From: Candidatus Polarisedimenticolaceae bacterium
Lineage (GTDB): Bacteria > Acidobacteriota > Polarisedimenticolia > Polarisedimenticolales > DASRJG01
Assembly: GCA_036275915.1 (NCBI GenBank)
Contig: DASUCV010000024.1
Location: forward strand, 1 to 64,000
Reading direction: 5' to 3'
Length of the DNA stretch: 64,000 nt
Shown: positions 13,895 to 14,600 of the stretch, in pieces
How the letters are laid out: each line of letters begins with the position of its first letter
Position numbering within the stretch: the first letter of the stretch is position 1
Notes under the pieces: generated by a model
The model's input: only the letters and a program-made list of their open reading frames with translations
Told to the model about the DNA's origin: nothing
The model's database searches: none
Program-made: the position numbers and the translations under genes

Positions 13895-13916
13895 CTCCTA
13901 CTATCGCCGATAGGAG
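13895..13916 (+). promoter_or_regulatory. Dyad overlapping the merB ribosome-binding site
   Basis: CTCCTA (13895-13900) is complementary to TAGGAG (13911-13916), and CTATCG (13901-13906) to CGATAG (13908-13913). TAGGAG contains the Shine-Dalgarno of merB, 6 nt before its GTG. The element could be a repressor operator, like the ArsR-type dyad at 53824-53847, or an RNA hairpin that masks the ribosome site. Confidence 0.5.
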
Positions 13917-13922
13917 ATAGGC

Positions 13923-14600
13923 GTGGACGTCGACGTCGCGGTCAAGCTCGCCATCTATCACCACTTCGCGGAGACCGGATCCCGGCCCTCGCCCGACGAC
14001 GTCGGCGCCCGCATCGGTACGAAACGGACCGAAGCTCTCGCCGCCTACGAACGGTTGCGTCAGCAGCGCGTTCTCGTCCTCGAAGGCGACGGCGCGTCGA
14101 TCCGCATGGCGCCTCCGTTTTCCGGCGTGCCGACGCAGCACGTCGTCGAGGCGGACGGCATCCGCTACTACGCGAACTGCGCATGGGATTCCCTCGGCAT
14201 CCCCGCCGCGCTCCGCAAGCCCGCCCTCGTGCGATCGCGGTGCGAGCAGACGAAGGATCCGCTCGTTCTCGAGGTCGAGAGCGAAGGCCCGGAATCGAGC
14301 TCGTGGCTCTTCCACTGCGCCGTTCCGGCCGCGCGGTGGTGGGACGACATCGTCTTCACCTGAAGCCGGATGTTGTTCTTCCGGTCGGAAGAGAACGTCG
14401 CCGCGTGGTGCCGCACGCACGACACTCCGATGCGTCCTCTCGTCACGATCGCGCAGCTCTGGGGTCTCGCCTCGGCGTGGTACGCCTCGCGCCTCCGTCT
14501 CGACTCGCGCCGCCCCCAGCCCGACGAGATGCGCGCGATCTTCGAGCGCCTCGGACTCGTCGGCCCGTTCTGGGATCCGCAATCGGACACGTTTGGCTAG
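13923..14600 (+). CDS. merB: Organomercurial lyase, selenocysteine-containing (putative)
   Basis: MerB cleaves the carbon-mercury bond of organomercurials in the cytoplasm. Read straight through the in-frame TGA at 14361-14363, the gene encodes 225 residues, the family length. An N-terminal winged-helix-like part (1-65) is followed by APPFSGVP and NCAWDSLGIP, giving Cys86 and Asp89, equivalents of Cys96 and Asp99 of the plasmid R831b enzyme. The TGA is codon 147, where the family has its third catalytic residue, Cys159 (WDDIVFT-C). Downstream, LFFRSEENVAAWC and LGLVGPFWDP continue the MerB sequence in frame without loss. A SECIS hairpin follows the TGA at the standard distance, so selenocysteine is the most likely reading; a nonsense mutation is the alternative. 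The start is GTG 13923 with AGGAG 6 nt upstream. Standard gene calling would split it into two. Confidence 0.85.
14361..14396 (+). promoter_or_regulatory. Bacterial SECIS element with in-frame UGA
   Basis: UGA (14361-14363) is followed after 19 nt by the tetraloop GGUC (14383-14386). The loop is closed by UUCC/GGAA (14379-14382 with 14387-14390) and, past a two-base GA bulge, by GUUC/GAAC (14375-14378 with 14393-14396). In E. coli fdhF the loop that SelB contacts is also GGUC, 18 nt after the UGA. Confidence 0.82.

Follow-up and report, generated by a model that had tools for sequence, protein, structure and literature searches.

Predicted selenocysteine in place of the third catalytic cysteine in a family of organomercurial lyase (MerB) homologues

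The gene at 13923-14600 on the forward strand of the window, the whole stretch of 64,000 nucleotides analysed in this study, almost certainly makes one mercury-detoxifying enzyme with selenium in its active site. Our overall explanation, in which we place high confidence, is that an in-frame UGA would be decoded as selenocysteine (Sec) to give a full-length organomercurial lyase (MerB) with a site made up of Cys86, Asp89 and Sec147. The comparative evidence makes the insertion of Sec at the TGA appear virtually certain, and organomercury is probably the main substrate.

Results

The frame at 13923-14600 is open apart from a single in-frame TGA at 14361-14363, and when this codon is read as selenocysteine it runs for 225 residues from a GTG start to a TAG stop; all features described here lie on the same strand. 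Reading of the sequence places an AGGAG ribosome-binding site at 13912-13916, 6 nt 5' of the GTG. This motif is also the 3' end of an imperfect inverted repeat, CTCCTACTATCGCCGATAGGAG (13895-13916), and a hairpin formed by the repeat could hide the ribosome-binding site. The repeat was sought upstream of the relatives' genes and was not seen there.

The readthrough protein matches the Pfam MerB family PF03243 with a score of 100.7 bits (E 7.6e-29), the cut-off being 27. In a phmmer alignment to R831b MerB (3f2g), with positions counted off the printed alignment, Cys86 (14178-14180) corresponds to the catalytic Cys96, Asp89 (14187-14189) to the catalytic Asp99 and Cys107 (14241-14243) to the structural Cys117, and the TGA, codon 147, falls on Cys159 with no gap in the site. 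A preliminary description of this DNA had proposed the same two catalytic matches and a TGA at the Cys159 column with family sequence continuing after it, and the alignment bears out both. The equivalents of Cys86 and Asp89 are invariant in a 33-sequence alignment. Cys107 is conserved in part of the Sec-containing MerB (Sec-MerB) clade only, its place being taken by Asp or other residues in some members. Selenocysteine at position 159 is a chemical analogue of cysteine, and Cys86, Asp89 and Sec147 would constitute the MerB triad with selenium replacing one sulfur.

An AlphaFold model of Sec-MerB, built with 32 relatives, has a mean pLDDT of 95.9. At E < 0.001 a Foldseek search with this model returned MerB entries only (E 2e-11 to 3f0o), and VIA-align gave Z 18.5 to MerB2 (5c17; 187 residues aligned, rmsd 3.2) and Z of about 15 to the R831b MerB structures; full-length structural matches to the predicted fold were MerB chains only. 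A C-terminal tail (residues 197-225) extends past the range aligned to solved MerB. With L212 and W217, both invariant in the 33-sequence alignment, this tail is peculiar to the Sec-MerB clade.

A homologue search of 396 genomes of the phylum and another genome collection gave 99 matching loci, the window's included. A stop codon occupies the residue-147 column in 91 of them (33-69% identity), as TGA in 88 and as TAG in three, and none of the 91 has a further in-frame stop in its aligned parts. Mean identity to the window protein among these homologues is 48% upstream and 48% downstream of the stop, and median dN/dS for 30 close pairs is 0.17 upstream and 0.15 downstream. The preliminary description had suggested counting TGA and Cys among MerB homologues, and had considered that relatives might carry a decaying downstream frame or that the TGA might be a sequencing error. 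The counts favour its reading, the relatives keep the stop with a downstream region under purifying selection, and recurrence of the TGA in 87 other loci rules out error. By record titles the phyla represented are Acidobacteriota, Verrucomicrobiota, Chloroflexota, Actinomycetota, Planctomycetota, Eiseniibacteriota, Gemmatimonadota, Fidelibacterota, Calditrichota and Sysuimicrobiota; as the carriers are mostly MAGs, individual phylum labels may be wrong. Within the window's phylum, stop-codon MerB was present in 14 of the 396 genomes.

Among the homologues, Cys occupies the site in R831b MerB, L036, L037 and L038. Two other loci, L073 and L112, were considered as Cys forms among close relatives and rejected, both being deletions or frameshifts; in L112 the TGA is still there in another frame. 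A decayed copy of Sec-MerB was also observed on plasmid 1 of Rubrobacter radiotolerans (NZ_CP007515.1; L154, 1450-1916). The N-terminal part of this copy is absent, the TGA is kept, the downstream part is frameshifted and the loop of the hairpin described below is lost.

Just past the TGA there is a SECIS-like hairpin, UUCUUCC-GGUC-GGAAGAG (14376-14393; +13 to +30 after the TGA), with a 7-bp stem that starts 12 nt past the TGA and a GGUC apical loop (14383-14386) at 19 nt. The stem-loop had been described as forming from 19 nt downstream, a distance that is right for the loop; the stem starts already at 12 nt. The apical loop is GGUC in 83 of 90 distinct sites and AGUC in six. In 46 distinct sequences, 95.3% of the cells of the helix are paired, compared with 48-65% when the partners are slid. 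Four of the seven pairs covary, both sides having changed, and the observed values were reached by 0 or 1 of 500 shuffles. Found over 91 loci, the conserved stop and hairpin are not due to chance. Synonymous choice within the loop, which falls in codons 154 and 155, is fixed as well. Its Ser codon is TCG in 90 of 91 genes as against 35% of their Ser codons elsewhere, and its Arg codon is CGG in 83 of the 84 genes with Arg there as against 27% of Arg codons elsewhere, binomial values for this choice ignoring relatedness. The GGUC loop is absent from the Trp-bearing L031 and the Cys-bearing L038.

The Sec pathway, for which a search had been proposed, is present in the source genome (4.53 Mb, 98% complete) as selA (518 bits), selB (score above the cut-off), selD (L011, C11) and a tRNA-Sec with anticodon UCA (72 bits). 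The selD gene is itself a selenoprotein gene, with an in-frame TGA of its own within the motif Gly-Sec-Ala-Ser-Lys (GUASK), which suggests that this organism decodes UGA as Sec in other genes as well. A selA gene, which 249 of the 396 sampled phylum genomes carry, is found at E 1e-129 or better in each of the 14 that have a TGA-MerB, among them the source genome (Fisher p 0.0013 for co-occurrence). Among 50 carrier genomes from the other collection, mostly MAGs, selA scored over the cut-off in 43, gave a weaker or partial match in four and was not found in three; the carriers with weak matches or none are probably incomplete MAGs.

The three TAG-bearing genes come from Geodermatophilus saharensis, Blastococcus capsensis and Blastococcus saxobsidens (loci L079, L098 and L102). 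In all three genomes the tRNA-Sec has the anticodon CUA, owing to which ARAGORN prints it as tRNA-Pyl. Nocardioides sp. zg-1230, the tree neighbour of the TAG genes (support 90/97), has a TGA gene and a UCA tRNA-Sec. Codon and anticodon agree throughout, TAG with CUA in L079, L098 and L102, and TGA with UCA in L086 and the source genome. A stop codon that tracks the anticodon of tRNA-Sec in this way, a test beyond those named in the preliminary description, is close to decisive for selenocysteine. Neither a pseudogene, nor sequencing error, nor generic readthrough can explain it.

Maximum-likelihood analysis joined the stop-codon forms with L031, L036 and L037 in a single group (support 99/99), separate from canonical Cys-MerB. 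Inside this Sec group, L036 and L037 carry Cys both at the Sec site and where Asp89 (the Asp99 equivalent) would be, so that their site contains three cysteines; of the two genomes concerned, one shows a trace selA match only. Their state is as expected after Sec loss, long branches leaving the placement unsure. An unannotated match on a Paraburkholderia plasmid (H2), of similar identity, may be kin of these two. In L031 (G167, 1501-2148), whose genome has selA, Ser is found at Cys86 and Trp (TGG) at the Sec site. This sequence is possibly a non-lyase descendant, and its two replacements suggest that some relatives are not classical lyases.

Sec-MerB is sporadic, being missing from the sole other genome examined of the same family. 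No mer operon or conserved neighbours were found across 98 loci, small sets of close relatives excepted, and in the window the gene is flanked by those for an amino-acid permease and a Nal1_C-like protein. This scattered, solitary occurrence suggests horizontal movement; Sec-MerB was searched for on phages, and none carries the gene. The source genome has no MerA over the cut-off of 454 bits, the best matches scoring 335 and 284 bits. The higher of these is probably a lipoamide dehydrogenase, with a dihydrolipoamide acyltransferase-like gene downstream.

Discussion

The Sec machinery, the conserved stop, selection downstream of it and the match of TAG with CUA support the earlier proposal that this gene encodes a selenoenzyme, and other accounts of the TGA have to be weighed against them. 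Readthrough of UGA happens at a low level in bacteria, and the codon might be decoded not by Sec-tRNA but by a suppressor or near-cognate tRNA (for Trp, Cys or Arg), a view that the Trp at the site in L031 could be taken to favour. We consider this very improbable, given that TAG stands in place of TGA in the genomes with a CUA tRNA-Sec, that the SECIS-like hairpin is conserved and that the genomes have the Sec pathway. It is harder still to believe that translation truly ends at the TGA and that the frame after it is a relic. TGA is of course a standard stop, and a decayed copy does exist on the Rubrobacter plasmid; however the downstream frame is conserved like the upstream one, carriers from ten phyla retain the TGA, the helix shows covariation and the codon becomes TAG exactly where the tRNA-Sec is CUA. 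The pseudogene reading was rejected on conservation, dN/dS and this TAG/CUA match. A sequencing or assembly error for TGC or TGT (Cys159) has the least credibility of all. Although a one-base change would give back the canonical Cys, the idea is refuted by the independent copies of the TGA, and in the stop-codon forms synonymous choice within the GGUC loop is fixed.

Insertion of Sec would require termination to be prevented at the UGA, and it is proposed here that SelB with Sec-tRNA-Sec binds the GGUC-loop hairpin just past this codon, so that the ribosome could decode it as selenocysteine and complete the full-length MerB. In MerB, Cys96 and Cys159 bind mercury, Asp99 handles the proton and exogenous thiols strip Hg(II), and one computed route of Hg(II) removal begins with Cys159 protonation (PMC4525700). 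By analogy Sec-MerB would act on organomercury, and its mercury chemistry in vivo may be similar. The mature active site would contain Cys86, Asp89 and Sec147, selenium standing for one of the two mercury-binding sulfurs. Thiolate and selenolate would together bind R-Hg+, Asp89 would handle the proton with release of R-H, and Hg(II) would stay between Cys86 and Sec147 until thiols take it off. A selenolate at the Cys159 position should be deprotonated at neutral pH and hold mercury more tightly, and its lower pKa and higher mercury affinity could make the capture of scarce organomercury easier. It might likewise speed capture, protonolysis or product transfer. As no MerA over the cut-off is present in the source genome, the product would probably pass to cellular thiols or be kept as Hg-Se species.

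With no mer operon around the gene and no MerA over the cut-off, genomic context does not establish that mercury is the substrate. It is conceivable, if rather doubtful, that Sec is inserted and that the natural substrate is another carbon-metal(loid) bond (organotin, organolead, organoarsenic or selenium species), or that the protein is a metal sensor or chaperone. The solitary gene without conserved neighbours, the MerA gap, the sporadic family and the deep separation of the Sec clade from canonical MerB in the tree would all fit such a role, as would the related SaoL, which has been put in organometallic metabolism although no substrate of it is known (PMC13188914). Against this, the 33-sequence alignment shows no variation at either of the other two catalytic residues, and the fold is the MerB fold. 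Moreover merA is missing in about half of merB-carrying genomes anyway, with which the gap in the source genome agrees (PMC8261052). Organomercury is the substrate we prefer.

The presence of Sec in the MerB superfamily has been predicted earlier and is not new, as two entries, the Sec-containing MerB-like SaoL and 'Organic mercuric lyase MerB2', are already listed among predicted selenoproteins (PMC13188914, PMC9312934, PMC7435645). In the accessible literature we found no description of the stand-alone, full-length Sec159 clade, of selenocysteine in place of Cys159 or of the UAG-encoded form. The main MerB census, of 84,032 genomes, recorded no Acidobacteria with MerB (PMC8261052). The Sec-MerB family was invisible to it because Cys159 was required, and the window protein has at this position a TGA, read as Sec. 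The protein also misses the NCBIfam MerB cut-offs (NF009710/NF033555; 51.5 vs 193 bits and 48.9 vs 200 bits). Sec-MerB is hidden from annotation too: automatic annotation would split the window gene in two at the TGA, and in the annotation of the Rubrobacter plasmid the decayed copy appears as a merB of 90 residues that stops at the TGA. The family is largely missed by mercury-gene surveys. We think it reasonably likely that about ten phyla contain a large, ancient and as yet uncounted class of Sec-dependent lyases for organomercurials or other organometals, encoded with UGA in most and with UAG in Geodermatophilaceae, which censuses overlook when they rely on annotated proteins or insist on Cys159.

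The affinity of selenium for mercury is far above that of sulfur, and a demethylating enzyme with selenium as mercury ligand would therefore join two element cycles. It would also bear on the breakdown of organomercury at low concentrations. Culturable hosts, Blastococcus, Geodermatophilus and Nocardioides, make the Sec-MerB claim testable at once.

Comparison with known systems helps to place the family. The SECIS of E. coli fdhF has a GGUC apical loop 18 nt from the UGA; the loop is the same here and the distance is 19 nt. The stem of the window hairpin is a continuous one of 7 bp, and that of fdhF has a bulged U. SaoL (NF040728) of the SAO system is a MerB-like organometallic lyase and predicted selenoprotein (PMC13188914, citing Haft and Gwadz 2023), and like the window protein it belongs to the MerB superfamily with a predicted Sec. 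It is listed however with a CU motif (PMC13188914) in contrast to T-U-S in the window protein, which at 41 bits against a cut-off of 140 is placed outside SaoL by the NCBI cut-off. None of the 396 genomes of the window's phylum has SaoL over the NF040728 cut-off, and no SAO transporter genes lie beside the window gene, none of eight nearby proteins scanned being an ABC-type transporter. SaoL was sought on plasmids by way of the G074 relative, and among the matches listed there were ordinary MerB records only. The name of 'Organic mercuric lyase MerB2' (PMC7435645) suggests a Sec-containing MerB homologue; it is a table entry without sequence, position or distribution, and may or may not be the window family.

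A CUA tRNA-Sec is known in Geodermatophilaceae, together with the UAG selenoproteins FDH, a UGSC-motif protein and AhpC (PMC5330540). The CUA tRNA-Sec lineage and a UAG at the Sec position are common to these and to L079, L098 and L102, and MerB is absent from those named, so the UAG Sec-MerB apparently adds to the known set. In comparison with MerB itself (PF03243; R831b, 3f0o/3f2f; MerB2, 5c17), the window protein has Sec in the column of Cys159, at about 20% identity, and its gene lies outside any mer operon; the winged-helix N-terminal part and the catalytic core are common to both.
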